NCBI GenBank assembly: GCA_903857255.1
Contig: CAIODY010000089.1
Span: 1 to 34,635, forward strand
Source: an uncultured bacterium
Lineage (GTDB): Bacteria; Bacteroidota; Bacteroidia; Chitinophagales; CAIODY01
Length of the DNA stretch: 34,635 bases
Direction: 5' to 3'
Within the stretch, counting starts at the first letter, position 1; every line of letters begins with the position of its first letter. The translations under genes were made by a program, and so were the position numbers. The notes under the pieces are model-generated. The model worked only from the letters and a program-made list of their open reading frames with translations, had not been told where the DNA came from and ran no database searches. Below, piece by piece: positions 2,147 to 29,561 of the stretch.

Positions 2147-4099
2147 ATGATGAAGGATTTAAACATCGAACAACACCAAGTTATCAAAGATTTATTGTTA
2201 GCGCATTACAACACTGCCAACCCTCGAATCATTGCTGCGGTTGAGAATAAAGCTGGTGTGCCTACTTTTGCTGTATCGTTGAGAGACGGACAATTTATTA
2301 CTATTGCTGAAATTATTCAACCTACAGTGCCCGTAACGGTTGATAAATTTGCCATGGAATGGATTAATGAAAAAATCAACGGCACATTAGGCGAAGCGGT
2401 GAAAAATGCTTTGAAAAAACGTGGCAAGGTTAATTATCAGGCTTTTGAAGTAGATAGTCGTGATGATAACAACAAAAGTGTTCGCCGTATTCAACCCTTC
2501 GGAACTATTGAATTTACTGAAATTTTACCACATACACAATTCAACTTTGATTATTATAAAGATGAAATAAACCACTTGGCTGAAACCATTCCGAGTTTGA
2601 CGGCTGATTTCAAAAAGCATTTTCAAAAGATTCAATCATTGCAAAATTCATTGAAAGAAACTTTGATTGAACCGAACAAGAAAAAGGAATTGTTTGAAAA
2701 ATTGCAAGAAAGTTATGTGCAATTAGAAAACAAACAATCGGCTGAAAAAGCTGAATTAGAAAAAAACTCTGCTGCTAATTATGCCGACATCAAAACCAAG
2801 TGTGAAGCGGCTTTGAACGGCATCAAGGAAAATAAAACATTTAAAGAAACTCGTGAGGCTTTATCCGAAATTCAAAATTTATTAAACGATAAAGATTTGA
2901 AACGTGAGCAGCGTAATGAGTTATACGAATTGGTGCATGCTTGTTATGCTGAAATTGATAAACGCCGCGAAGAAGAACAAGAGGAATATGAAAAAACAAC
3001 TTCAGCCAATTACGAAGCGGTAAAACCTAAGCTGGAAGCCTTTCAGCAAACGATTGCAAATTCAGAAAATGTACAAGAAACTCGTGAAGCATTAAAAAAA
3101 CTGCAAGCCGAAACTTGGGAAACACGATTAAAAAAAGAACATCGCAGCGAAGTGCATGATACTTTCAATAAATTGTTTGAAGCATTAAGCCAACGCTATG
3201 AAGCTTTGAAATTTCAATTTGAAAATGAAAGCAATGCCAACAAAGATGAATTGGCTTTGAGAGTGGAAGAAGTGGAAAAATTTGTTGCATCATCTACTGA
3301 TTTAAAGGCTACCAAAGAGCAGTTGAAGGCGATGCAAAAGCAATTGAATGAAATGAAACTGACACCTTATCATCGTCAGGAATTGTGGAATTTAATTGAT
3401 AAAGCTTTCAAAGAAGTCAACAAAAAAATGGATGAAGCTTTTGGTGATGAAAGAAAAGTGGCAGAAGAAAATTATGCTAAAATAAAACCACAAGTGGAAG
3501 CAGCAGTGGAAGCGGTGAAGAGCGAAAAAATGTTTAAAGAAGCTCGTGAAAAAATGAAAGCTGGCTTCGATTTAATAAAAGATAAAGAACTGAAACTGAT
3601 GCCACGTCAGCGTCAGGAGTTATGGAAAATGTTAGAGCAAACCAATATCGAATTAAATGAAAAAGCCGATAAGTTTTTTGCCAACAGAAAAGTGGAACGT
3701 GAGCAAAAAGAAAAAGAATGGTTGAATCGTCAGGCGGATAGAATGTTTAAAATGGAAAAATTAGTTAAGCATTTGCAACAAGAAAATTTAGACGAAAAAA
3801 CCAACTTGGGCAACATGGAAGATTGGTTAAACAAAGTGAGAGATAATGCAGCAACAAAAGAATTTCGCCAAAGCATTTTAGATAAAATTGAAGCTTCAAA
3901 AAAATTGACTGCTGATAGATTGAAGCGCATTGATGATATAAAAAATGAGTTGAAAGATATGCGCCAAAAAATGAGAGAAGCTGACGAAAAGAAAAAACAA
4001 GAAGCTGCTGAAGATGCCGCCAAAGCGCAAGAGAAAGCAAATGCAGCAAAAGAAAAAACACCCACTGCCGAAAATTCAACCACTGAAAACGCAGGATAA
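2147..4099 (+). CDS. Helical protein with tandem ~77-residue repeats
   Basis: About 650 residues, highly charged and almost wholly alpha-helical after residue 140. The first ~140 residues look globular. Then come about five repeats of ~77 residues. Recurring marks are ANY-[AE]-[DAK]-[IV]-K-[TP]-K near residues 215, 292 and 446, and RxEL[WY] near 261, 414 and 493, numbered from the TTG at 2132. The C-terminus is an Ala/Lys/Glu-rich coiled coil. The repeat layout recalls DUF349 proteins of Bacteroidota, but I cannot confirm that family. There is no signal peptide, so it is probably cytoplasmic. The ATG at 2147 is preferred over the TTG at 2132 because GGAG lies at 2134-2137, 9 nt before it; a second ATG follows at 2150. 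bamD begins 46 nt downstream. The function is not recognised. Confidence 0.85.
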   Translation: MMKDLNIEQHQVIKDLLLAHYNTANPRIIAAVENKAGVPTFAVSLRDGQFITIAEIIQPTVPVTVDKFAMEWINEKINGTLGEAVKNALKKRGKVNYQAFEVDSRDDNNKSVRRIQPFGTIEFTEILPHTQFNFDYYKDEINHLAETIPSLTADFKKHFQKIQSLQNSLKETLIEPNKKKELFEKLQESYVQLENKQSAEKAELEKNSAANYADIKTKCEAALNGIKENKTFKETREALSEIQNLLNDKDLKREQRNELYELVHACYAEIDKRREEEQEEYEKTTSANYEAVKPKLEAFQQTIANSENVQETREALKKLQAETWETRLKKEHRSEVHDTFNKLFEALSQRYEALKFQFENESNANKDELALRVEEVEKFVASSTDLKATKEQLKAMQKQLNEMKLTPYHRQELWNLIDKAFKEVNKKMDEAFGDERKVAEENYAKIKPQVEAAVEAVKSEKMFKEAREKMKAGFDLIKDKELKLMPRQRQELWKMLEQTNIELNEKADKFFANRKVEREQKEKEWLNRQADRMFKMEKLVKHLQQENLDEKTNLGNMEDWLNKVRDNAATKEFRQSILDKIEASKKLTADRLKRIDDIKNELKDMRQKMREADEKKKQEAAEDAAKAQEKANAAKEKTPTAENSTTENAG

Positions 4100-4145
4100 T
4101 TTTATGCTACAAAATAATTTCAGTTTTTTAAAGTTATCCAATGCA

Positions 4146-4961
4146 ATGAAAAAAATAAGTCTGTTGTTTTTTGCAATCATGGTTGCCGTTGGTTTTTCAT
4201 CATGCGACCCTTATTCAAAATTGTTGAAGAGCAGCGATTTGAATTTGAAGTTGACAAAAGCAAAAGAATTTTATAACAAAGAAGAATACGAAAAAGCGTT
4301 GCCTTTGTTTGAAGAAGTGTTAGCCACTTTTCGAGGCACAAAAAACTTCGAAGCCGTTTATTATTATTATGCTTGGTGTCAGTATGGTTCAGAAAATTAC
4401 ATGATGGCGGCTTATCATTTTAAATACATTGCTGAAAATTTCCCATCTAATGAACATGCTGCTGAATGTGAATACATGAGTGCTTTCTGCTACAATTTGT
4501 TATCACCTGATGTGAATTTAGACCAAGAAGATACCAAAAAAGCACTGGAGGCAATGCAACTTTTTATTAATAATCACCCCGAAGATGAACGGATTTCAAA
4601 AGCAAATGAAATCATTATGGCACTTCGTGAAAAGATGGAATTGAAAGCTACTCGGGCAGCTGAATTGTATTATAATATCAGTAGTTACAAAGCTGCTGTT
4701 ATCGCTTTTAAAAGTGTTTTAAAAGAATATCCTGATACCAAAAAAGCGGATTATCTAAATTTCTCCATCTTGAAAAGTAGCTATGATTATGCTACACAAA
4801 GCACGCCAGCGAAAAAAGAACAAAGATTCAATGAAACTTTGACCTATTATTTCAATTTTATTGATAAATTTGCAACTTCAAAATATGCAAAGCAGGCTCA
4901 AAGGATTTATGATGATTCAAAAAGCCAGTTAGAAAAATTAAAAAATAACAATAACAATTAA
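4146..4961 (+). CDS. bamD: Outer-membrane assembly lipoprotein BamD
   Basis: A 271-residue lipoprotein of the Bam complex, which inserts beta-barrel proteins into the outer membrane. The signal sequence MKKISLLFFAIMVAVGFSSC ends at a lipid-attachable Cys20. The mature part is a series of TPR-like helix pairs, for example YNKEEYEKALPLFEEVL and YKAAVIAFKSVLKEYP, as in the BamD/YfiO family, and its length is normal. The open frame extends upstream into the previous gene, but the signal peptide fixes the start at 4146. The stop codon is 2 nt from the start of rpoZ, so the two are probably translationally coupled. The protein ends in a run of five Asn. Confidence 0.92.
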   Translation: MKKISLLFFAIMVAVGFSSCDPYSKLLKSSDLNLKLTKAKEFYNKEEYEKALPLFEEVLATFRGTKNFEAVYYYYAWCQYGSENYMMAAYHFKYIAENFPSNEHAAECEYMSAFCYNLLSPDVNLDQEDTKKALEAMQLFINNHPEDERISKANEIIMALREKMELKATRAAELYYNISSYKAAVIAFKSVLKEYPDTKKADYLNFSILKSSYDYATQSTPAKKEQRFNETLTYYFNFIDKFATSKYAKQAQRIYDDSKSQLEKLKNNNNN

Positions 4962-17058: not shown

Positions 17059-17066
17059 TATCTTTG
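17059..17066 (+). promoter_or_regulatory. -7 promoter box of the four-gene surface-protein locus
   Basis: TATCTTTG matches TAnnTTTG exactly, 27 nt before the ATG at 17094. No other clear box occurs before the next three genes. Confidence 0.6.
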
Positions 17067-17093
17067 GCAACTTCAAATCAAAAAGTATAACCT

Positions 17094-20000
17094 ATGCACT
17101 CTAAAAGTACACTTTCATTTAGGTTTTTAATTATTGCGATTTTATCGTGCTGCTCATTTTCTGTGTTTGCTCAAAAAGGCGAAATTCATGGAACAGTTTT
17201 ATACGAAGCAGCCGATGGCACAAAAAAACCAATTGATTATTTAACGGTATTGGCTGTTCAAAATGGTTTGAACAAAGGCTTGGCTTATACGACTGATGAT
17301 GGTTCGTTTGTCATTAAACCGTTAGAAGCTGGTGAATATGAACTTTTGATTAAAGATTTGAAATACGATACAGTACGTATTTCGGGTTTGCAGGTTTCAT
17401 CTGATGGTGCAAGAATTATTTCTGAACCAATCATCTTACATAAAAAGAGCAATAAAATTCGTGAAGTAAGAATTGTTGCTAAAAAAGTTTTGATTGATGT
17501 TGGTAGTTCAGCTAATTCAAAAAAGATGACTGCTGAAGAAATTAAAAATGCACCAGTTCGTGGAATCAATGATTTGGTTGCTGCTGGTACACCTGGTGTT
17601 TATCAAGATAGAGATGGTGGTTTGAAAGTGAAAGGTGATAGAGGGCAAGGAACAAGAATGTATATTGATGGAATTGAAGTAAGAGGTGATGCGGCTATTC
17701 CTGTTGGTTCTATTTCTGAAACTGAAATTACTACTGGTGGAATTCCTGCGAAATATGGTGATGCCATTGGAGGTGTTATTAATGTGGTAACAAAAGGTGC
17801 TTCAAAAAAATTCTCTGGCGGAGGTGAAGTTGCTACATCAAAATTATTAGACCCTTACGGCTATTATTTAGGAGCAATTAATTTAACTGGTCCATTATTA
17901 TTTAGAAAAGATCCAGGTGCAAAAGAAAGAAAACCATTATTAGGCTATAACCTATCATTGGAATTTCAACACGATAAAGACCCAACTCCTTCTGCGATTG
18001 GGGCTTATAAAGTGAATGATGCTACATTATCTGATATTGAACAAAATCCATTATTACTAAATCCGAAATCGGGTTATGGTTATATTAGAAGTGCTGAATT
18101 TGTGAATGCTAACGATTGGGATAAAATTAAGTACCAACAAAATGTGGCACAAAACCAAGTAAGAATTGCTACTAAATTAGATTTCAACTTGAATCCTCAA
18201 ATTGCATTATCAGTTGGCGGAAATGGATTTTACACCGATAATCGTGAATATGTGAGAGAATACGCATTGTTTAATTCTCAAAATAACCCTGAAAACAGGA
18301 ATTATTCATGGAGAGTTTTTGCTCGTTTCAAACAATCAATTGGTAAAACGGATACTGCATCATTACGAAGAATGCAACAATCTGCAGTTCAAAATGCTTA
18401 TTATACTGTTCAAGTAGATTATAGTCAGGACAATTATTTAACCATGTCAGACAGAGATAAGAAAAATGCTTTCGATTATGGTTATGTAGGCAAATTCCAA
18501 ACATTAAGAGCAAAGCAATTTGTTAATGGTACAGATTCTTTAACTCACATAACGGGTGTTTTACAGACTTTTGATAAAGATACTATGGTGCTTTACTCAC
18601 CAGGTTCAGCAAATCCGAAAATGACAAATTACCCAACCCAATATTTTAATGCAGTTGGTGATGCCAGCAGTAATATTTACAATAGTAGTATTTCAAGCAT
18701 TTTGCAAGGAGGAGGCTTAATAAATGGTCAACGTCCTGGGGATGTAAATGGATTATGGTACAATACCGGAAGAACTTATGGTGGATATAATTACAGTCAA
18801 AATAATCAATTACGTGTTGCCGTGGATGGTTCATTTGATTTAAAATTGAGTAATAGGAAAGGGTCTAAGCCTCATAATATTGAGTTTGGTTTATTATACG
18901 AACAACGTAGTGATAGGTCATATAACATGAGTGCATTTGGATTATGGAGTTTGATGCGTTTGTTAGAGAATAATCAACTTTCGCAATTAGATAAATTGCA
19001 TCCAATAATTAAAGGCAATGGTACTGGTGGATTCCAAGATACTGTTTTCTATAATTATCAATATAATAAAGCTGACCAATACAATTTCGATAGAAATGTT
19101 CGTCAAGCATTAGGTATGGCTGCTAATAGCACTCAAAAAATTGATATTGATGCTTTAGACCCGAATTTTTTTAAATTAAGTATGTTTTCGCCTGATGAAT
19201 TATTAAATAATGGTAATAGTTATGTGAGCTATAATGGCTATGATTATATGGGTAATGTTTATCGCGGAACTGCTTCGTTTAATGATTATTTTACAAAAAA
19301 AGATGCCAATGGAAATTATTTGCGCCAAATAGGAGCTAACCGCCCTATTTATAATGCGGCATACATTCAAGATAAATTTTACTTCAATGATTTAGTGTTT
19401 AATGTGGGGTTGCGTATTGACCGATTTGATGCTAATACCAAAGTGCTGAAAGACCCATATTCGCTCTATGCGATTAAGTCAGTTGGCGAAGTGAGCGGTA
19501 GCCAAAATATTGCAAATGGAGGAAAGCACCCTTCGAATATTGGAAGTGATTATGCAGTATATGTTGACCAGCTATCTAATCCAGCAACTGCAAAAATTTT
19601 AGGTTATAGAAATGGTGACAATTGGTATGACGCAAACGGTACTTTACTAACTGACCCAACTGTTTTGGCAAAAGCAACTGCGACTAATAATATTTTGCCT
19701 TATTTGGCAGATACAAAAACCAAGATTACTGATACTACGTTTGACCCTAATACATCATTTAAAGATTTCAGTCCACAATTAAACTTCTCCCCACGTGTTG
19801 CATTTAATTTTCCAATTAATAATGATGAGGCTATGTTCTTTGCAAATTATGATGTTTTGGTTCAACGTCCACAAGCCAATAATTACATCACACCCGACTA
19901 TTATATGTTTATGGATAAAATTGCAACTGATGCAACTTTCCCAAATCCAAATTTATTACCTGAAAGAAAAATTGACTATGCTATTGGTTATAAGCAGTCA

Positions 20001-20858
20001 TTAACTCCTCGTTCGGCATTGACATTAACAGCTCATTTTATTGAGTATAAAGATTTAATTCAGATTACAAGATTAGCCTATTCCTATCCAGTGTCTTATC
20101 GTACTTTTGGTAATCGCGATTTTGCAACTAATAAAGGATTTGATGTAAATTATGAACAAATTGCGACTAAAAATTTACGATTGAACGTAAGTTATACTTT
20201 AGCATTTGCTGATGGTAGTGGTAGTGATGACCGTTCGCAAGCTGCCTTGATTGATGCTGGTGTTCCAAATTTGCGAACAGTGATGCCGTTAAGTTACGAC
20301 GTTAGACACACTATTGGTGGTAATATGGATTTCCACTTTGGTAGTGGTGATTCGTATAATGGACCGCAAGGTAAAATGAGAAAAATATTAGAAAGTGCTG
20401 GCTTTAATGTGATTTTCAGAGCTCGTTCTGGTGAGCCATATAGTAAGCTTGGTTTAGCAAGAGGGATGGCTTATATTAATCCTACTGGTTTTCAAGTTTT
20501 ACAAGGTTCAATCAATGGTTCAAGATTACCATGGAATTATAATTTTGATATTAAATTCGACAAGAACTTTTATTTCAAAGCCAAAACAACCAAAAAAGGT
20601 AGGGTTTCGAGAGGTACTGGCATTACTACTTATATAACAATTACCAATCTTTTGAATACCAAAAATGTAGCGTCTGTTTATAACTATACAGGCAATCCAA
20701 ACGATGATGGCTACTTAGGAAGTCCTGGCGCACAAAGTGCAATTGCTAACCAAAATAATCCACAAGGATTTATTGACCAATATCGGGTAAAGATGGATAA
20801 TCCTTCTAATTATTATTTACCTCGTCGTATCCGATTTGGAATCATTTTTAATTTCTAA
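17094..20858 (+). CDS. Large TonB-receptor-type outer-membrane barrel protein
   Basis: 1254 residues. A signal peptide ends ~27 (SFSVFAQ). A carboxypeptidase-regulatory-like domain follows (~28-115), then a TonB-box-like REVRIVA and a plug (~140-235) with RGINDLVAAGTPGVY, MYIDGIEVRG and PAKYGDAIGGVINVVTKG. A very long beta-barrel ends in RRIRFGIIFNF, with the C-terminal aromatic residue expected of Bam substrates. The barrel is larger than most TonB receptors. It leads an operon: the 1355-residue exported protein starts 22 nt after its stop, then a PorV-family barrel. In this setting a role in exporting or assembling the neighbouring protein, rather than nutrient uptake, is plausible but is inference. 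Confidence 0.9.
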   Translation: MHSKSTLSFRFLIIAILSCCSFSVFAQKGEIHGTVLYEAADGTKKPIDYLTVLAVQNGLNKGLAYTTDDGSFVIKPLEAGEYELLIKDLKYDTVRISGLQVSSDGARIISEPIILHKKSNKIREVRIVAKKVLIDVGSSANSKKMTAEEIKNAPVRGINDLVAAGTPGVYQDRDGGLKVKGDRGQGTRMYIDGIEVRGDAAIPVGSISETEITTGGIPAKYGDAIGGVINVVTKGASKKFSGGGEVATSKLLDPYGYYLGAINLTGPLLFRKDPGAKERKPLLGYNLSLEFQHDKDPTPSAIGAYKVNDATLSDIEQNPLLLNPKSGYGYIRSAEFVNANDWDKIKYQQNVAQNQVRIATKLDFNLNPQIALSVGGNGFYTDNREYVREYALFNSQNNPENRNYSWRVFARFKQSIGKTDTASLRRMQQSAVQNAYYTVQVDYSQDNYLTMSDRDKKNAFDYGYVGKFQTLRAKQFVNGTDSLTHITGVLQTFDKDTMVLYSPGSANPKMTNYPTQYFNAVGDASSNIYNSSISSILQGGGLINGQRPGDVNGLWYNTGRTYGGYNYSQNNQLRVAVDGSFDLKLSNRKGSKPHNIEFGLLYEQRSDRSYNMSAFGLWSLMRLLENNQLSQLDKLHPIIKGNGTGGFQDTVFYNYQYNKADQYNFDRNVRQALGMAANSTQKIDIDALDPNFFKLSMFSPDELLNNGNSYVSYNGYDYMGNVYRGTASFNDYFTKKDANGNYLRQIGANRPIYNAAYIQDKFYFNDLVFNVGLRIDRFDANTKVLKDPYSLYAIKSVGEVSGSQNIANGGKHPSNIGSDYAVYVDQLSNPATAKILGYRNGDNWYDANGTLLTDPTVLAKATATNNILPYLADTKTKITDTTFDPNTSFKDFSPQLNFSPRVAFNFPINNDEAMFFANYDVLVQRPQANNYITPDYYMFMDKIATDATFPNPNLLPERKIDYAIGYKQSLTPRSALTLTAHFIEYKDLIQITRLAYSYPVSYRTFGNRDFATNKGFDVNYEQIATKNLRLNVSYTLAFADGSGSDDRSQAALIDAGVPNLRTVMPLSYDVRHTIGGNMDFHFGSGDSYNGPQGKMRKILESAGFNVIFRARSGEPYSKLGLARGMAYINPTGFQVLQGSINGSRLPWNYNFDIKFDKNFYFKAKTTKKGRVSRGTGITTYITITNLLNTKNVASVYNYTGNPNDDGYLGSPGAQSAIANQNNPQGFIDQYRVKMDNPSNYYLPRRIRFGIIFNF

Positions 20859-20880
20859 TTCAAAAAATCAATTGATATAT

Positions 20881-23800
20881 ATGAAACGCATTAAGAGTAT
20901 ATTAATAGCAGCATCCTTATTTATTGCATACCAAGGTCAAGCTTTTGAGATTCTGAACCTACCTCATAAAACAGTAGTTGGCAATACCGGTTCAGGGAAA
21001 AGTGCTTTAGCTTCATGTGTGCAAACTACAGCAAACATTGATTTGGATATCAATAATGTAAGAGCTCGTATAATGAACGGTGGTGATATGTGGTGGGATA
21101 GAGGTTTAGGAGTTGCCCGTTATGAAGTGCCAAAAAGAAATTTAGCAACTGACAATGGAATGAGAGTTAGTTCACTATTTGCTGGTGCAATTTGGGTAGG
21201 AGGATTTGATGCCGCAGGAAATTTACGTGTTGCTGCACAAACTTATCGCCAGATTGGGAATGATTATTTTGCTGGTCCGTTAGATGCTAATGCTTCGGTT
21301 GATGCTGCAACTTGTACGCAGTATGATAGATTTTGGAAAATCAATTTAACTGAAATTCAGAGTTTTTGGAATGCGTCTGCAAATAATGGTTCAACAACTG
21401 CTGCAGCTTTTCCCGGAGTATATGATTGGCCTGCTAAAGGGAGTAAAACGGCAAATGATGCAAACGGAACTCCAATTGCGTCAGGAGGATTAGGCATTCC
21501 TTATGATTTGGCACCATTTTATGATGCTGGTGGTCCAAATGGGCAACCAGATGGACGTTATGACCCTACTTACGGTGATTATCCAGCATTTGACCCAACC
21601 TTACCAACTACATTTCCTGACCAAATGATTTTTTGGGTTTATAACGATAAAGGCAATATTCATACTGAAAGCCAAGAGCAAGCAATTGGCTTGCAAGTAA
21701 ATGCGATGGCTTTTGCTTTCTCTACAAATGATGATGTCAATAATATGACTTTTTATCGTTATGATTTATACAATAAAGGAAATTATGAATTGGATAGTAC
21801 TTATATGGTTCAATGGATTGACCCCGATTTAGGTTGTTATACTGATGATTATATTGGTTGTGATAGTTCTTCAGGGTTAGGAATTTGTTATAATGGTGAA
21901 GCTACAGATGTCCCTTGTCCTAATGGTTATGGTTCACCGGGCAATTATACTTTTGGTGATGGTACAGGAATTCCAATGGAAGGAGTAGATTTTTTTGAAG
22001 GACCAACTGATTCCAAAGGTAAGCAATTAGGAATGACAGGATTTTATTATTATTACAATACAACACCATCTTCACAAGCTGACCCAACCAATGGTGTACA
22101 GTATTACCAATATATGACTGGTACTTGGCGTGATGGAACTCCCTTTACTTCAGGAGGAGATGCACATTCTGGTTCAACAAGAACACATTTCGTATTTCCA
22201 GATGCCCCTGACCAACATGGAATTAATGCAGCAAGTGGTGCCCCCTATTGGTCAATGTGTAACCCAACTGTTCCGTTTGGTGATTTGCGTATGGTGCTTT
22301 CTTCAGGACCTTTTAAATTGATTCCAGGTGCAAGGCAAAGGATTACTGTTGGCGTGGTTTGGGTACCAGCAATCACTTATCCATGCCCTTCATTCGATAA
22401 GTTGTTGGCTGCTGATAGAAAAGCACAAGCTTTGTTTGATGCACATTTTAAATTGTTGAATGGACCAGATGCACCAGATGTTGCTATTGCAGAATATGAT
22501 AAAGAATTAATTTTACAACTCTCAAACAATACGATTACATCTAATAATTATCACGAACAATATTCGGAGTTCGATAATGAAATAATGCCTTATGTTGCTG
22601 TAAATCCCAAAGCACCAACTCGTGCTGATTCGGTTAAAGCATCATATCAATTGGAAGGCTATCAAGTATTTCAATTAGTTAGCAATGCAGTTTCTGTATC
22701 TGATTTGCAAGATGTTTCAAAAGCTCGCCAGATAGCGCAAGTTGATATTAAAAATGGGGTTACCAAAATAGTGAACTTTACACATGATAATAATACAAAT
22801 GCTGACGTACCAACATTGGAAGTTGATGGCGGTGATTTGGGGCTTAAGCATACGTTTGATATTAAAACCGATGCCTTTGCGTCGGGTACTAATGCTTTGG
22901 TAAATCATCAAACCTATTATTTCATGGTTATTGCTTATGCTTACAATAATTATAAGCAATTTGCGTCAAATGACCCAACATCTCAAAGTACACCTTATAG
23001 GTCGAGCCGTAGAAACATAAAAGTTTATTCTGGTATTCCTCATATTGTAACGCCAGAAAGAGGTGGAACTGTTTTACATTCAAAATATGGAGATGGTCCT
23101 TTTATTACAAGGTTGGAAGGTTTTGGTTGTGGAACAAATTTCTTGAATTTATCACAAACTTCAATTAGCAGTATTTTAGCCAATAATCATTTAGACCAAT
23201 TACAATATGATACTTTGGGTGGACCGTTTGTTGTATCTGTAACAGACCCTAAAAATGTTCAACCTAATGATTATGATGTTTATTTGATTGATTCTATTTA
23301 CTCGATTTCTGGAAATGCGGATGATAGCGTAAACACAAAAGGATATTGGAAAATTGTAAATAATACTACCGGTGAAACACGTTACGCTCTAAAAGATATC
23401 TCCAGTTCCGTTGACCAAGTTTTTGCCGATTGGGGCTTCTCTGTAAATATTGCTCAATCTGCATTTCCTGGTACCAAGATGGATGTTAGACAAAGTGGTT
23501 CGATTACTAACGTAGTTGAGTATGCACCAAATAATGGTTTAATCAGTTGGGCTTTTGAAGCAGCAAATCAAAATAATTTTTGGTATAATTATACGAATCC
23601 TGCAACCGCTGATGGCGAAGGAGATGCACCAAATAATTGGATACGTTCTGGCTCTTATGTCCCACAAAAACCTAATATAGTAACGGGTGATTATAATTTT
23701 ATTCCTGGGTCAAATGGTTCAGCACCTTCTTGTGACCCAATTGATAGAAATGAAGATTTTGAAAAAATTGCGGGTAGAACATGGGCACCATATAGACTTT

Positions 23801-24948
23801 GTCAAGCAAGTGTTTATTCTGTTCCATCTGATTCGGAAGCAATTATTGACCAAGCTGTTTTACCAGGATTAAGCGAATCGAATGTGGCAAATAATCATAA
23901 ACTTAGTGATATTTTTAGCTTTGATATTGTTTTTACAAGCGATAAATCTAAATGGACAAGATGCGCAGTTGTAGAAACTAATCCTCATCAACCTTTGACG
24001 AAAAGATTAATTGGTAAAAAACATCTATCTTGGGTAGATTATAATGCTGTTAATGCAGATGGTAGTCCGCAGTATGATAATTCAAGCAATCCAAGTACTG
24101 GATTAAGTTGGTTTCCTGGCTATGCAATAAATGTTGAAACTGGTCAACGATTAAATATGTTTTTTGGTGAGGATAGCCATTTGCCACTAAATAATGGTGA
24201 TGATATGTTGTGGAATCCAACTGATAGTTTATTTAATACTGTATTTTCAAGATTAGTTTATGGCGGTAGACATTATATTTACATCATGAATTCAGAATAC
24301 AATGATGATATAAACTACCAACAATCATATATCGCAAATGCTTTGCAAAATCTCCCGACTTCTACATTGAAACCATCTGATATCTTTAATAAAGTAGTAT
24401 GGGTGGGAGCACCAGTTCCTTTATTCCCATTAAAATCAGCTAAAGAAGGAATTATTCCAGCCGATTTAAAATTAAAAGTAAGAGTTTCAAAACCTTATTG
24501 TAAAGCGAATTATGGTAATAACAATCAATACCCTACTTATCCAAAATATAATTTTAGTATGAAGGGATTGGCTGTTGAGACTAATATTATGGATTCTGCT
24601 AAATCGGCATTAGACCTTATAAATGTTGTTCCAAATCCTTATTATGCTTATTCAACTTACGAATCGGGTTCATTGGATACCAAAGTTAGAATTACTAACC
24701 TACCCCAAAAATGCACAATTACGATTTACGCAGTTGATGGAACTTTAATTCGGCAATATAATAGAGATACTGAATTACCAACTTATCAAGAGTGGGATTT
24801 GAAAAATAGTGCAAATGTTCCTGTTTCCAGTGGGCTTTATTTAATTCATATATCCGCAACTGGATTGGGAAAAAATCAAAATGAATCGGCTCAAAAAGTT
24901 ATTAAATGGTTTGGAGTTATGCGTCAAGTAGATTTAAATACCTTCTAA
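20881..24948 (+). CDS. Giant exported protein with a modified T9SS-like C-terminus
   Basis: 1355 residues. A signal peptide (MKRIKSILIAASLFIAYQGQA) is followed by a characteristic N-terminal block, NNVRARIMNGGDMWWDRGLG and AGAIWVGGFD...RVAAQTYRQIGNDYFAGPLD (~58-134). I recall this block from large Bacteroidota surface proteins. The middle is rich in Asn, Asp and aromatic residues, with no catalytic motif. Residues 1248-1325 read like a T9SS type A domain (VVPNPYYA ... ITIYAVDGTLI ... SSGLYLIHI). An extra ~30 residues then end in KVIKWFGVMRQVDLNTF, unlike a standard sorting tail. A Walker-A-like GNTGSGKS at 34-41 is probably chance. The frame is open back to 20836, but the signal peptide sets the start at 20881. 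The function is unknown. Confidence 0.87.
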   Translation: MKRIKSILIAASLFIAYQGQAFEILNLPHKTVVGNTGSGKSALASCVQTTANIDLDINNVRARIMNGGDMWWDRGLGVARYEVPKRNLATDNGMRVSSLFAGAIWVGGFDAAGNLRVAAQTYRQIGNDYFAGPLDANASVDAATCTQYDRFWKINLTEIQSFWNASANNGSTTAAAFPGVYDWPAKGSKTANDANGTPIASGGLGIPYDLAPFYDAGGPNGQPDGRYDPTYGDYPAFDPTLPTTFPDQMIFWVYNDKGNIHTESQEQAIGLQVNAMAFAFSTNDDVNNMTFYRYDLYNKGNYELDSTYMVQWIDPDLGCYTDDYIGCDSSSGLGICYNGEATDVPCPNGYGSPGNYTFGDGTGIPMEGVDFFEGPTDSKGKQLGMTGFYYYYNTTPSSQADPTNGVQYYQYMTGTWRDGTPFTSGGDAHSGSTRTHFVFPDAPDQHGINAASGAPYWSMCNPTVPFGDLRMVLSSGPFKLIPGARQRITVGVVWVPAITYPCPSFDKLLAADRKAQALFDAHFKLLNGPDAPDVAIAEYDKELILQLSNNTITSNNYHEQYSEFDNEIMPYVAVNPKAPTRADSVKASYQLEGYQVFQLVSNAVSVSDLQDVSKARQIAQVDIKNGVTKIVNFTHDNNTNADVPTLEVDGGDLGLKHTFDIKTDAFASGTNALVNHQTYYFMVIAYAYNNYKQFASNDPTSQSTPYRSSRRNIKVYSGIPHIVTPERGGTVLHSKYGDGPFITRLEGFGCGTNFLNLSQTSISSILANNHLDQLQYDTLGGPFVVSVTDPKNVQPNDYDVYLIDSIYSISGNADDSVNTKGYWKIVNNTTGETRYALKDISSSVDQVFADWGFSVNIAQSAFPGTKMDVRQSGSITNVVEYAPNNGLISWAFEAANQNNFWYNYTNPATADGEGDAPNNWIRSGSYVPQKPNIVTGDYNFIPGSNGSAPSCDPIDRNEDFEKIAGRTWAPYRLCQASVYSVPSDSEAIIDQAVLPGLSESNVANNHKLSDIFSFDIVFTSDKSKWTRCAVVETNPHQPLTKRLIGKKHLSWVDYNAVNADGSPQYDNSSNPSTGLSWFPGYAINVETGQRLNMFFGEDSHLPLNNGDDMLWNPTDSLFNTVFSRLVYGGRHYIYIMNSEYNDDINYQQSYIANALQNLPTSTLKPSDIFNKVVWVGAPVPLFPLKSAKEGIIPADLKLKVRVSKPYCKANYGNNNQYPTYPKYNFSMKGLAVETNIMDSAKSALDLINVVPNPYYAYSTYESGSLDTKVRITNLPQKCTITIYAVDGTLIRQYNRDTELPTYQEWDLKNSANVPVSSGLYLIHISATGLGKNQNESAQKVIKWFGVMRQVDLNTF

Positions 24949-24989
24949 ATTTTATTTCAATATCAAAATTGTAATTAATCTGAAATTAT

Positions 24990-26084
24990 ATGATTAAAAT
25001 TAAACGATTATTATTAACGGTTTTATCTGGTACATTGTTTTTGGGGCAGCCATTATATGCTGGAAATCCAGATAGAGCAGGGCAGGCAGGTGCTTATGAA
25101 TTATTGATTAATCCTTTTGCCCGAAGTTCGGGGTGGGGTGGGGTTAATTTTGCGAATGCAAATGGTATTGAAGCTATGCGCTTAAATGTAGCTGGCTTGT
25201 CAAGCGCAGAGAACACTGAAGTGAGTTTCACAAAAGATGTTTGGTTGCAATTACAAGGGGCAAACATTGGAGTTAGTGACTTAGCGTTTGCTCAAAAACT
25301 TGGAAAAAACGGCGGTGTTTTAGGCATTAATTTGTTAGGGATGTCATTTGGAGATATTCCTATTACTACAACTGGAGTTCCAGATGTTGTGAATGGTCAA
25401 GCTACTTTGGGTACTTTTAAACCACAATATTATAATTTCTCATTGTGTTATTCTAAAAAAGTTTCGCAATCTATTCAAGGTGGGTTTGGTATCACCGGTA
25501 TTTCAGAGCAAATTCCCAATGCAAAAGCGCAAGGGTTAGCATTGGATGCTGGTATTCAATATACGCCTGTTGCCCAACCTCAAATTCATTTTGGTATTTC
25601 ATTGCGCAATGTAGGTGTAGGTATGGGATTTGGCGGTGATGGTATTTCATTTACAGGCGCATCACAAGGAGGTGGATATACACAAGTGGAACAAATGAGA
25701 ACAGCACAATTTGAATTACCGTCTCAATTAAATATTGGGGGTGCTTATGATTTTAAATTTAATAAAATTGATGAAAATTATTTTATGCATCGTTTGACGA
25801 TTGATGCTGCATTCATTTCAAATTCATATTCTGCAGACCAATATGGAATTGGTGTCGAATATTGCTATCGAGAAATGTTTATGCTTCATACAGGTTATAG
25901 ATACCAAGCAGGAATGTTAAGTAACACACAGGTTCATACAAATGTTTATACTGGTGTAAGTGCTGGATTTACTTTTATTGTCCCGTTGAAAAAAGATGGT
26001 CCAAAATTAGGGATTGATTATTCATACAGAACTACAAATCCATTCTTTGGCACCCATTCAATTGGTGTTTCGATAGCTTTATAA
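24990..26084 (+). CDS. PorV/PorQ-family outer-membrane barrel protein
   Basis: 364 residues. A signal peptide (ending ~24, PLYAG) is followed by RAGQAGAYELLINPFARSSG and a NANGIEAMRLNVAGLS segment, which identify the PorV/PorQ (UPF0164, FadL-like) family. The rest is regular beta-barrel sequence ending in the strand GTHSIGVSIAL. PorV of the type IX system binds cargo C-terminal domains and hands them to the attachment machinery. This gene sits 41 nt after a putative cargo gene and 25 nt before another, so it is more likely a locus-specific paralogue than the core PorV; no porU or other core T9SS gene is present. Confidence 0.9.
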   Translation: MIKIKRLLLTVLSGTLFLGQPLYAGNPDRAGQAGAYELLINPFARSSGWGGVNFANANGIEAMRLNVAGLSSAENTEVSFTKDVWLQLQGANIGVSDLAFAQKLGKNGGVLGINLLGMSFGDIPITTTGVPDVVNGQATLGTFKPQYYNFSLCYSKKVSQSIQGGFGITGISEQIPNAKAQGLALDAGIQYTPVAQPQIHFGISLRNVGVGMGFGGDGISFTGASQGGGYTQVEQMRTAQFELPSQLNIGGAYDFKFNKIDENYFMHRLTIDAAFISNSYSADQYGIGVEYCYREMFMLHTGYRYQAGMLSNTQVHTNVYTGVSAGFTFIVPLKKDGPKLGIDYSYRTTNPFFGTHSIGVSIAL

Positions 26085-26109
26085 TTTAATTACTATAATA
26101 TTCTTTTGC

Positions 26110-27645
26110 ATGAAAAAAATATACTTATTCTTCTTATTGATTTTTATTGGTTACAATGCTCTGTTAGCTCAATGCAACCTAAATATCCATATTGCAACAA
26201 CAAACAATGATTCTATTTGCAAAGGCAAAAATACATGGTTGTATATTGGAAGCAAGTATGGAAATACCTCAAAATATTCTATCACTTGGACACCAACATT
26301 ACCAACAAAAGATTCAGTAGCAATTGCACCAACTGTTACTACAAAATACAAAGTGGTTGTAGATAGTGCTAGTGTTTGTTCAGGAAGTGACTCTATTACT
26401 ATTACAGTGCTGGCATTGCCTATTACTACAATTCAGTCTTCATCGCCTTCTTATTGTAACGGTACTGCTAATCCAGTAATTCTTTCATCATCTAATACTA
26501 CTTTACCTGCTTACTTATGGTCATTCAATCATAGTTCAAATTTTATTGATTCGATTTTTCCAACTGCAAACACAAATGTATCTTTGAGAATAACCGACTC
26601 CTTTGGGTGTGTGAATAATTATACTAAACTTGTTTACTTAAACAAACCAAATTTTTCGTGGGCAATGTCAGTTGATACAGTTGCTTTCTCAAATACTTCA
26701 AGTGGAAATGATTTATTGTATAATTGGAGTTTTGGTGATGGTTCAGGAAGTTCCGTTCAAAATCCCCGACATTTTTACTCAATATTTTGTAAAACTTATT
26801 TAGTGAAATTAACAATTACTGATACAGTTACTTCTTGTGTACTTTCTTATCAAGATTCTATATACGTTACGCCAGGCTCTTTATCAGCCAATTTCACGTA
26901 TACTGTTAGTGGTAGTAATGTTGTTGCCACTAATACATCTTCAGGTACATTTATTAAAAGTTATTGGAATTGGGGGGATGGAAAAATTGATTCATCGTCA
27001 TTTAATGCGTCGCACACCTACACATCAAATTACACACGTGATTCTATTACATTAACTGTTAAAAACAGTTTCGGTTGTTTATCGTCTAAGCTAAAAACGC
27101 AATATACAGGCTGTAGGGATAGTTTTAAATATACCATTAATGGAACTACTTCCATTGATTCAGTTAAATTCACATCATGGAGTAACCAAACCGTTGCCCA
27201 CTTTACTTGGACATTAAATGGAGGAAGTTTATTAACGAATTCTTCCTCAAATCCATTAGTAATTGCAATTACATCACCAATTGCTTATAACATGTGTTTG
27301 AAAACTACCGATGCTAATAGTTGTATTTCAACTTTTTGTAAAACGATTGATTTATCTACGGGAATAAATACAGTTAATTTCGCTGATAATTTCAATGTTT
27401 TTCCAAATCCAACAAATAGTGTAGTAAATATAAATTTCAATTTGAATCAATCTGATAAAATTTATTTTACTATTTATGATGTAACAGGAAAAAAATTATT
27501 CAATACAGAAAAAGAATATTCTTCTGTTGGCTTGAAACAAGAAACATTTGATGTAGCCAAATTCAACAACGGACTTTATTTATTAGAAATAAAAAACCAG
27601 AGCAAGTCTTCTCTTTTTAAAAAGATTGTAGTTTCAAAAAACTAA
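26110..27645 (+). CDS. PKD-domain secreted protein with type A T9SS sorting domain
   Basis: 511 residues. The signal peptide ends at ~20 (NALLAQ). An Ig-like N-terminal region with paired cysteines is followed by two PKD-type domains: ~181-253, with YNWSFGDGSG and NPRHFYS, and ~259-318, with YWNWGDGK and ASHTY. A third, degenerate repeat (~335-415) precedes the T9SS sorting domain at 428-511, with NVFPNPTNSVV, IYDVTGKKLF, NNGLYLLEIK and a KKIVVSK end. It is predicted to be an extracellular adhesive or structural protein secreted by T9SS. As the fourth gene of the operon, it has a conventional sorting tail, in contrast to the protein encoded at 20881. Confidence 0.9.
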   Translation: MKKIYLFFLLIFIGYNALLAQCNLNIHIATTNNDSICKGKNTWLYIGSKYGNTSKYSITWTPTLPTKDSVAIAPTVTTKYKVVVDSASVCSGSDSITITVLALPITTIQSSSPSYCNGTANPVILSSSNTTLPAYLWSFNHSSNFIDSIFPTANTNVSLRITDSFGCVNNYTKLVYLNKPNFSWAMSVDTVAFSNTSSGNDLLYNWSFGDGSGSSVQNPRHFYSIFCKTYLVKLTITDTVTSCVLSYQDSIYVTPGSLSANFTYTVSGSNVVATNTSSGTFIKSYWNWGDGKIDSSSFNASHTYTSNYTRDSITLTVKNSFGCLSSKLKTQYTGCRDSFKYTINGTTSIDSVKFTSWSNQTVAHFTWTLNGGSLLTNSSSNPLVIAITSPIAYNMCLKTTDANSCISTFCKTIDLSTGINTVNFADNFNVFPNPTNSVVNINFNLNQSDKIYFTIYDVTGKKLFNTEKEYSSVGLKQETFDVAKFNNGLYLLEIKNQSKSSLFKKIVVSKN

Positions 27646-27657
27646 TTTTAAATTTCT

Positions 27658-27665
27658 TATTTTTG
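27658..27665 (+). promoter_or_regulatory. -7 promoter box upstream of greA
   Basis: TATTTTTG matches TAnnTTTG exactly, 65 nt before the greA ATG. A terminator-like hairpin (27671-27702) lies between the box and the gene, so transcription from here would include the hairpin in the leader. Confidence 0.45.
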
Positions 27666-27670
27666 CATCA

Positions 27671-27710
27671 AGCAGGGCGTATCTAAAAAGATATGCCCTG
27701 TTTATTTTTT
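27671..27710 (+). terminator. Terminator-like hairpin between the surface-protein locus and greA
   Basis: Stem 27673-27684 with 27689-27700 (12 bp, one G-T) can be extended by two pairs to 14 bp. It closes an AAAA loop and is followed by TTTATTTTTT (27701-27710). It most simply ends the four-gene locus. Because an exact -7 box lies just upstream, it may also act as an attenuator in the greA leader. Confidence 0.85.
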
Positions 27711-28217: not shown

Positions 28218-28285
28218 AGAATGAGTATTTTGAAATCATCGTAACTTGGTTGCAGAAATATCAAAATACTCATTCTCTTTTTTTT
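28218..28285 (+). terminator. Long-stem terminator after greA
   Basis: A perfect 16-bp stem (28218-28233 with 28261-28276) with a 27-nt loop is followed by C and eight T residues (28278-28285). The next gene's only plausible start, TTG at 28284, lies in the last two bases of this T-tract. Confidence 0.8.
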
Positions 28286-29561
28286 GAATAAAATTCTCAT
28301 TTACATATCGCAACCATCATCACGAGCTAAATATACTTTTTCGATTTTGCTGAAAACCTTATTGGGATTAGATTTCGAGATAACACACGATGAAAATTAT
28401 TTCAACAATTTTGTAGGTACAAAAATTTCTTACACAAAAGATAAATTGAACAACGAGTTGTTTTTTGCTGCCACTGATTTGTTGTTTGAAAAAAATATCA
28501 ATCCCGAAAACTATTTAAAACTTACTATTGATGAAGCATTCACCATTCACCATTCACCATTCACCTTTGATATTTTTGCCGCTTCATTTTTTTTATTGAC
28601 TCGATATGAAGAATATAGCAATGAAAATTTCCAGCATCAGCATAGCATTTTATTTCGTTCCAATCTTTTGCAAACGCCAATTATTAATCAATGGGTGATG
28701 CAATTAAAAACTATTTTGCAACAATATTTTCCTGAATTAAAATTTCAAAAACGAAATTATCAATTCACTCCAACCATTGATGTAGACAGGGCTTTCGCAT
28801 TTAAAGGAAGAAATAATTTTAAAACAATTGGCGGTTTTGCAAAAGATTTTTTGAAAGGAAATTTCTTTGAAATAAAAATGCGTTTTGCAGTTTTATTTCA
28901 AAACGAAAAAGACCCGTTTGATGTGTTTGACGAATTGGAAAATGTGCATCAGCAAAATAATTTACGAGCAAAATATTTTTTTCATTGTGGCAATTATGAT
29001 GGCGTTGATAAAAATATTGATTTGCAAAATACCAATTTTAAAACATTAATCAATCGCTTGCAGACTACAGCAGATATAGGTTTACATCCATCAGTAAAAT
29101 CAAACTACAATTTTGAATTATTGCAAAATGAAAAAAAAGTGTTAGAAAATTTGTTGCAAAAAAAAGTAAATGATAGCCGCCAACATTTTATTCAATTACA
29201 TTTTCCAAACACTTATCATCGTTTAATTGAACTCGACATCAAAAATGATTACACGATGGGTTACGCCACCACAGCAGGTTTCAGAGCTGGTATTTGTAAT
29301 TCATTTCATTGGTACGATTTAAAAAATGAAACAGAAACTGATTTAACTATTCATCCATTTTGTTGGATGGAAACAGTTTTTCAAGAATTTCAAAAAGTAA
29401 GCGATGAAGAAATGTGGCGGCAAACAAAACAAATCATCAATGCTGTAAAGCAAGTGGATGGCGAGTTTTGTGCTGTGTGGCACAATCATTCATTAAGTGA
29501 ATTGTATGAATTTAAAGGTTGGAAAAATAAGTATGAACAATTTGTAAAACTGGCGAAATAA
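28284..29561 (+). CDS. Polysaccharide-deacetylase-like protein
   Basis: 425 residues from a TTG start; no ATG or GTG lies near the conserved N-terminus (KILIYISQPSSRAKYTF). The C-terminal half carries the NodB-type (beta/alpha) fold marks. PTIDVD holds Asp166 and Asp168; IGLHPS has His268; DSRQHFIQLHFPNTYHRLIE spans 298-317; HNHS holds His400 and His402. Bacteroidota have a conserved family of this length annotated as polysaccharide deacetylase, whose substrate is not known to me. There is no signal peptide, so it is probably cytoplasmic or membrane-peripheral. A four-fold 7-nt repeat lies inside the gene (28538-28565, residues ~86-94). lnt follows after 45 nt. Confidence 0.82.
   Translation: MNKILIYISQPSSRAKYTFSILLKTLLGLDFEITHDENYFNNFVGTKISYTKDKLNNELFFAATDLLFEKNINPENYLKLTIDEAFTIHHSPFTFDIFAASFFLLTRYEEYSNENFQHQHSILFRSNLLQTPIINQWVMQLKTILQQYFPELKFQKRNYQFTPTIDVDRAFAFKGRNNFKTIGGFAKDFLKGNFFEIKMRFAVLFQNEKDPFDVFDELENVHQQNNLRAKYFFHCGNYDGVDKNIDLQNTNFKTLINRLQTTADIGLHPSVKSNYNFELLQNEKKVLENLLQKKVNDSRQHFIQLHFPNTYHRLIELDIKNDYTMGYATTAGFRAGICNSFHWYDLKNETETDLTIHPFCWMETVFQEFQKVSDEEMWRQTKQIINAVKQVDGEFCAVWHNHSLSELYEFKGWKNKYEQFVKLAK
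28538..28565 (+). repeat. Heptanucleotide tract 3: four perfect ATTCACC units
   Basis: ATTCACC is repeated four times without interruption inside the deacetylase-like gene, encoding roughly FTIHHSPF. Gain or loss of one unit would shift the reading frame. Confidence 0.9.

Follow-up and report, generated by a model that had tools for sequence, protein, structure and literature searches.

Three neighbouring genes in the stretch of DNA analysed here (34,635 nucleotides, referred to as the window) form a set that is conserved as a unit over much of the Bacteroidota. They encode a TonB-dependent-receptor-type barrel, a giant exported protein (the cargo) and a barrel of the PorV/PorQ family. On balance, we favour the view that the three products form a complex on the surface of the outer membrane, in which the cargo, exported by the T9SS, would sit on a barrel of its own and work together with the TonB-type barrel.

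Organisation of the locus

The genes lie on the forward strand, and the coordinates and spacing found here agree with a previous sequence-only reading of this DNA, which described four co-directional genes with gaps of 22, 41 and 25 nt. The features are as follows.

17059..17066, + strand: -7-box-like motif TATCTTTG, at chance level (motif count against simulation)
17094..20858, + strand: gene 1, TonB-dependent-receptor-type barrel, 1254 residues, with a PF07715 plug and an N-terminal carboxypeptidase-regulatory-like domain; conserved upstream of the cargo gene
20881..24948, + strand: gene 2, giant exported protein (cargo), 1355 residues; family conserved in relatives and in the phylum
20881..20943, + strand: probable signal peptide of the cargo, residues 1-21, read from the sequence
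20998..23046, + strand: N-terminal half of the cargo, residues 40-722, predicted to be mostly β (AlphaFold2, mean pLDDT 87.3)
24607..24945, + strand: C-terminal PorZ/PorU-type T9SS domain of the cargo, residues about 1243-1355 (NF052228, family profile, Foldseek)
24990..26084, + strand: gene 3, PorV/PorQ-family barrel, 364 residues, proposed dedicated anchor (NF033709, 123 bits; PorV 6h3i_F; tree branch)
26110..27645, + strand: gene 4, PKD protein with a type A T9SS signal, outside the conserved module (TIGR04183, 38.7 bits; same genus only)
27670..27703, + strand: terminator-like hairpin, strong, with a stem of 15 pairs followed by a T-run

Profile matches confirm the domain families previously given to the products of genes 1, 3 and 4 (TonB-type, PorV/PorQ-family and PKD/T9SS, respectively). 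The description of the cargo was incomplete, its own C-terminal T9SS-type domain having been overlooked. The single terminator placed 3' of the four genes corresponds to the strong hairpin at 27670-27703. The promoter box proposed before gene 1 did not survive: TATCTTTG exists at 17059, but its frequency is that of chance (the + strand contains 30 copies, and simulated sequence 29.3 ± 5.7), and after the simulation it was dropped as evidence for a promoter. The serA-like gene upstream ends only 42 nt from the start of gene 1, so that a separate transcript is only a possibility.

The fourth gene had also been counted as part of the module. Its product combines PKD domains with a type A T9SS signal. 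Among the 34 same-order neighbourhoods, the gene is present only in a relative of the same genus. Being confined to the genus, it is ruled out as a member of the conserved unit.

Other genes in the window include a subtilisin-like protease that bears a type A T9SS signal (392-2041, - strand), BamD (4014-4961, + strand) and, right after greA, a VimE-like deacetylase (28284-29561, + strand; 147.6 bits against a cut-off of 440). VimE functions in a sugar pathway that is connected with the attachment of T9SS cargo. No copy of the VimE-like gene or of the Lnt gene, both downstream of the module here, was found near the module in the neighbourhoods fetched from elsewhere.

Conservation of the gene set

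Homologues of the cargo are found in 113 of 150 relatives, and its profile matches 135 genomes in a phylum-wide sample of 395. The sequence-only reading had raised the question of whether the TonB-type, cargo and PorV-family genes would be found mostly apart in other genomes. This check was run, and the three are linked far beyond chance. The order TonB-type, cargo, PorV-family is kept in 34 of 34 same-order neighbourhoods (long form), mostly with a serA-like gene and greA on the flanks. These flanks are conserved within the order as well, and part of the synteny is thus plain descent. Outside the order, all three genes are present and in order in 19 of 20 neighbourhoods, and in the remaining one a contig end falls before the third gene; the stretches fetched there contain greA in 1/20 and the serA-like gene in 7/20.

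A separate scan of named genomes gave full triads at 67 of 80 loci, eight loci with the giant gene alone and five partial ones. The 67 comprise 66 recognised by script and one (L174) where the script took a second cargo gene. The carriers are labelled Chitinophagales, Saprospiraceae, Flavobacteriales, Bacteroidales and others; they are mostly metagenome assemblies, and the labels are as recorded. A cultivated carrier, Membranihabitans marinus, has the module at L176. At three loci (L174, L193 and L212) a second cargo gene lies immediately 3' of the barrel gene, which suggests a tandem duplication with a shared barrel. A further variant (L136:1476-5487, - strand) has the TonB gene followed directly by the PorV-family gene, with a lipoprotein-like gene ahead of both.

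The genes are also absent together. Profiles of the TonB-type gene and of the barrel were run on 37 genomes. The ten cargo-positive genomes all have orthologues of both, with very high scores. Neither is present in the cargo-negative genomes, save for a TonB fragment that lies at the end of a contig in one draft, which is 72% complete.

The C-terminal domain of the cargo and its probable link to the T9SS

The model for type A signals, TIGR04183, gives 14.2 bits with the whole cargo and 17.7 bits with its end alone, below the cut-off of 23. The C-terminal part of the PorZ model NF052228 does match the end of the window's cargo (E 6e-8), and it matches 32 of 32 ends of the cargo family. A profile was built from 32 such ends across the phylum and compared with the PDB, where PorZ (5m11) came first (E 5e-8) and PorU (6za2) second (E 0.0018). 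The cargo C-terminal half is predicted with a mean pLDDT of 84.6, and a Foldseek search with this model again ranked PorZ first. With PorZ or PorU as its closest match in both sequence and predicted fold, the end is assigned to the PorZ/PorU type of C-terminal domain.

PorU and PorZ are themselves exported and retain their signal; their ends are longer than usual, at 96-108 residues, and carry an insert after strand 5 (PMC11285876). From the PNP to the terminus, the cargo end measures 107 residues in the window and 91-108 over the 32 members, which agrees with the PorZ/PorU type, and a segment aligns with the PorZ insert (the insert being judged from sequence only). By analogy, it is likely that the cargo signal is retained after export. 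It is no more than likely, since in P. gingivalis the insert by itself does not block cleavage (PMC11285876).

The presence of the cargo follows that of the translocon component SprA. SprA is over its cut-off in 135 of 135 cargo-positive genomes; among the 395 genomes of the phylum, a further 168 have SprA without the cargo and 92 have neither, these being raw counts that ignore kinship. Taken together with the homology of its C-terminal domain, this co-occurrence points to a cargo that would depend on the T9SS. Two families of the order lack the whole set in complete genomes and keep SprA, which implies that the module is not needed for the T9SS itself.

It had been suggested that the locus is a self-contained export module relying on core machinery encoded elsewhere. 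The first part is too strong, as nothing at the locus replaces the translocon. The second part holds: the window's genome has SprA, PorU, PorZ and PorV, together with a PorQ gene that is split across two contig ends (L237, L238) where the assembly is broken.

The PorV-family barrel

The gene 3 product matches the PorV/PorQ family model NF033709 (123 bits, cut-off 90), and its profile matches PorV (6h3i_F, E 9e-13). Its scores against the equivalog models are well below their cut-offs, at 43.4 bits for PorV (NF033710, cut-off 250) and 52.5 bits for PorQ (NF033711, cut-off 220). In a tree, it groups with barrels that accompany the same cargo family, on a branch separate from PorV, PorQ and PorV2. 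No Pfam match was obtained for this barrel, and it falls outside FadL/Toluene_X as defined by those models.

PorQ retains PorZ at the surface, and PorV does the same for PorU (PMC5562754). Given a cargo with a PorZ/PorU-type end and a PorV/PorQ-family gene adjacent to it, homology suggests that the neighbouring barrel probably docks and anchors the cargo. The sequence-only reading suggested that both barrels could be dedicated to the neighbouring cargo. For the PorV paralogue this idea is strengthened by the type of the cargo end and by the PorZ-PorQ and PorU-PorV pairs; for the TonB-type barrel, a role in exporting the cargo is not borne out.

In several lineages (L050, L054, L056, L059, L061, L063 and L064) the module barrel bears one or two C-terminal OmpA-like domains, which suggests extra anchoring to peptidoglycan. 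The window's own genome also contains a second pair (L235:6771-13247, - strand), consisting of a 1752-residue protein with a PorU-like end and a 395-residue PorV-family barrel; here an adjacent TonB-type gene is absent.

The TonB-type barrel and the body of the cargo

Gene 1 has a plug domain (PF07715, 32.7 bits, cut-off 23.9), which matches CirA (E 3e-13), and the N-terminal domain matches that of a SusC homologue. A TonB-box-like stretch can be seen by eye ahead of the plug. The protein looks like a partner or a transporter, and not like an exporter of the cargo.

Inspection of the cargo shows a probable N-terminal signal peptide and no lipobox cysteine. No SusD match was found among the profile models searched, and the whole cargo, searched by sequence against the PDB, had no hits. 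The predicted N-terminal half (residues 40-722) has a faint Foldseek likeness to β-sandwich regions of sugar enzymes of the GH15/GH94/GH116 kind (best E 1e-5, TM 0.27). The window's own genome encodes a 559-residue paralogue of the N-terminal part (L068:3432-5111, - strand), which has a genuine type A T9SS signal at its end and neither a barrel nor a TonB gene next to it.

The plug, the SusC-like N-terminal domain, the faint likeness to sugar enzymes and the multi-copy triads found elsewhere (described below) weakly favour a role for the TonB-type barrel and the cargo in capture and import.

A wider class of triads

The PorV/PorQ family is usually taken as part of the T9SS machinery. For two complete genomes, most of the additional family members that were examined belong to fixed triads, and may be one-to-one surface anchors. 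In one distant complete genome (G177), 10 of the 15 PorV-family loci examined consist of a TonB gene, a gene for a protein with a C-terminal T9SS domain (CTD) and a PorV-family gene, one of the ten having a 1.6-kb gap; the other five loci comprise PorV, PorQ, a PorV2-type gene and two more. Of seven PorV-family loci examined in another complete genome (G325), four are triads, and PorV, PorQ and a PorV2-type gene make up the rest. The middle proteins are diverse in size and sequence, with related ends.

For the ten triads of one genome, the distances among TonB, CTD and barrel sequences correlate with one another (Mantel r 0.66-0.86, p 2e-4), most closely between the TonB-type gene and the barrel (r 0.86). 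This shows that triads spread as units. Protein contact may be one explanation of the matched distances; block duplication is another, and could suffice alone.

We advance, tentatively and as something rather less than probable, the idea of a phylum-wide and often multi-copy class of TonB-dependent uptake systems, in which a capture protein delivered by the T9SS would be lastingly anchored by a dedicated PorV-family barrel, as a T9SS-built counterpart of SusC/SusD. If so, many genes annotated as PorV-family would encode anchors and not parts of the secretion system. The triads offer a handle on two open questions, namely which surface proteins retain their T9SS signal, and how such proteins remain bound to the cell when neither lipid nor LPS links them to it. 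Should the TonB partner work with them, they would represent a second route by which Bacteroidota have arrived at SusCD-like importers. Among openly licensed PMC papers, no description of the triad was found under PorV paralogues, PorV2 or PorV with TonB. The parts are of known kinds; their fixed three-part combination and its spread appear to be undescribed.

Proposed mechanism and alternatives

We propose that the giant protein is exported via Sec and then by the ordinary T9SS (SprA), and that its C-terminal domain, being of the PorZ/PorU kind, would remain uncut after export, as in P. gingivalis. This domain would dock on the PorV-family barrel encoded alongside, which would act as dedicated collector and lasting anchor, a role comparable to that of PorQ towards PorZ and of PorV towards PorU. 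Once anchored, the cargo would be positioned over or beside the TonB-dependent-type barrel from the same locus. Together they would most likely act as an importer driven by TonB, with the cargo as the part that captures outside the cell. SusC/SusD would be the parallel, except that here the surface component would be delivered by the T9SS and not as a lipoprotein. The three-way complex and the transport role are the least secure steps of this proposal.

A simpler arrangement would comprise only the cargo and its dedicated shuttle: the PorV-family barrel would collect and anchor the cargo, and the TonB-type barrel would merely be co-regulated, making no contact. There is good precedent for two-part pairs of cargo and barrel (PorZ-PorQ, PMC5562754; type B CTD with SprF, PMC12618676), and some loci have a cargo gene and no TonB gene. 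However, the TonB-type gene is lost or kept jointly with the other two, and it is this gene whose distances follow those of the barrel most closely. We therefore regard the two-part arrangement as unlikely, though the strongest of the alternatives.

It is less likely still that the set is a surface-assembly or maintenance factor for other outer-membrane components, much as BamG and BamH extend BAM. The set is single-copy and syntenic across much of an order, and BAM does have FadL-family barrels that hold surface proteins (PMC12578637, PMC12611786). Against this, whole families of the order manage without all three genes in complete genomes, the protein families are not those of BamG/BamH, and the multi-copy triads with diverse middle proteins found elsewhere are a better fit to transport.

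Finally, an ordinary operon kept by descent, in which the cargo is a usual T9SS substrate of the general PorV and its neighbours have no dedicated role, is very improbable: it would account for the serA-like and greA flanks being retained within the order, and for the short paralogue, which has a genuine type A signal and lacks a barrel next to it, but outside the order the triad persists with greA near in only one of 20 loci, triads predominate among the PorV-family loci examined in a complete genome, and the CTD in the window scores below the type A cut-off.

Comparison with known systems

The complex of cargo, PorV-family barrel and TonB-type barrel that we favour resembles several known systems in part. 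One is the T9SS attachment complex, with its PorZ-PorQ and PorU-PorV pairs, which likewise has a surface protein with an end of the non-cleaved type and a holder from the PorV/PorQ family. The module differs in that the body of the cargo is unrelated in sequence to PorZ or PorU, that a TonB-type barrel is added, and that its PorV-family barrel is distinct from the PorV and PorQ equivalogs; PorU, PorZ and PorV are encoded separately in the same genome.

Substrates with a type B CTD are paired with cognate PorP/SprF shuttles in a signal-specific way (PMC12618676, PMC9143113), and share with the module the layout of one cargo and one barrel directly downstream. The CTD and barrel families are different, and no TonB-type partner has been described for type B. 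The module was considered as such a pair and this was rejected: no model of that kind matched, and the barrel is of the PorV/PorQ family.

In BamG/BamH, too, a surface protein is bound and positioned by a barrel of the FadL type. The families are again others, BamH is a lipoprotein, and the partner of BamG/BamH is BamA and not a TonB-type barrel. Membership was rejected, as the barrel has no Pfam match and the cargo is unmatched, and only the analogy is retained (PMC12578637, PMC12611786, both 2025).

In SusC/SusD, as in the module, a TonB-type barrel with a carboxypeptidase-regulatory-like N-terminal domain adjoins the gene of a large surface protein, and both systems are multi-copy in some genomes. 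The surface protein of the module is neither a lipoprotein nor a SusD homologue and has a T9SS-type end, and a PorV-family barrel is present as a third component.
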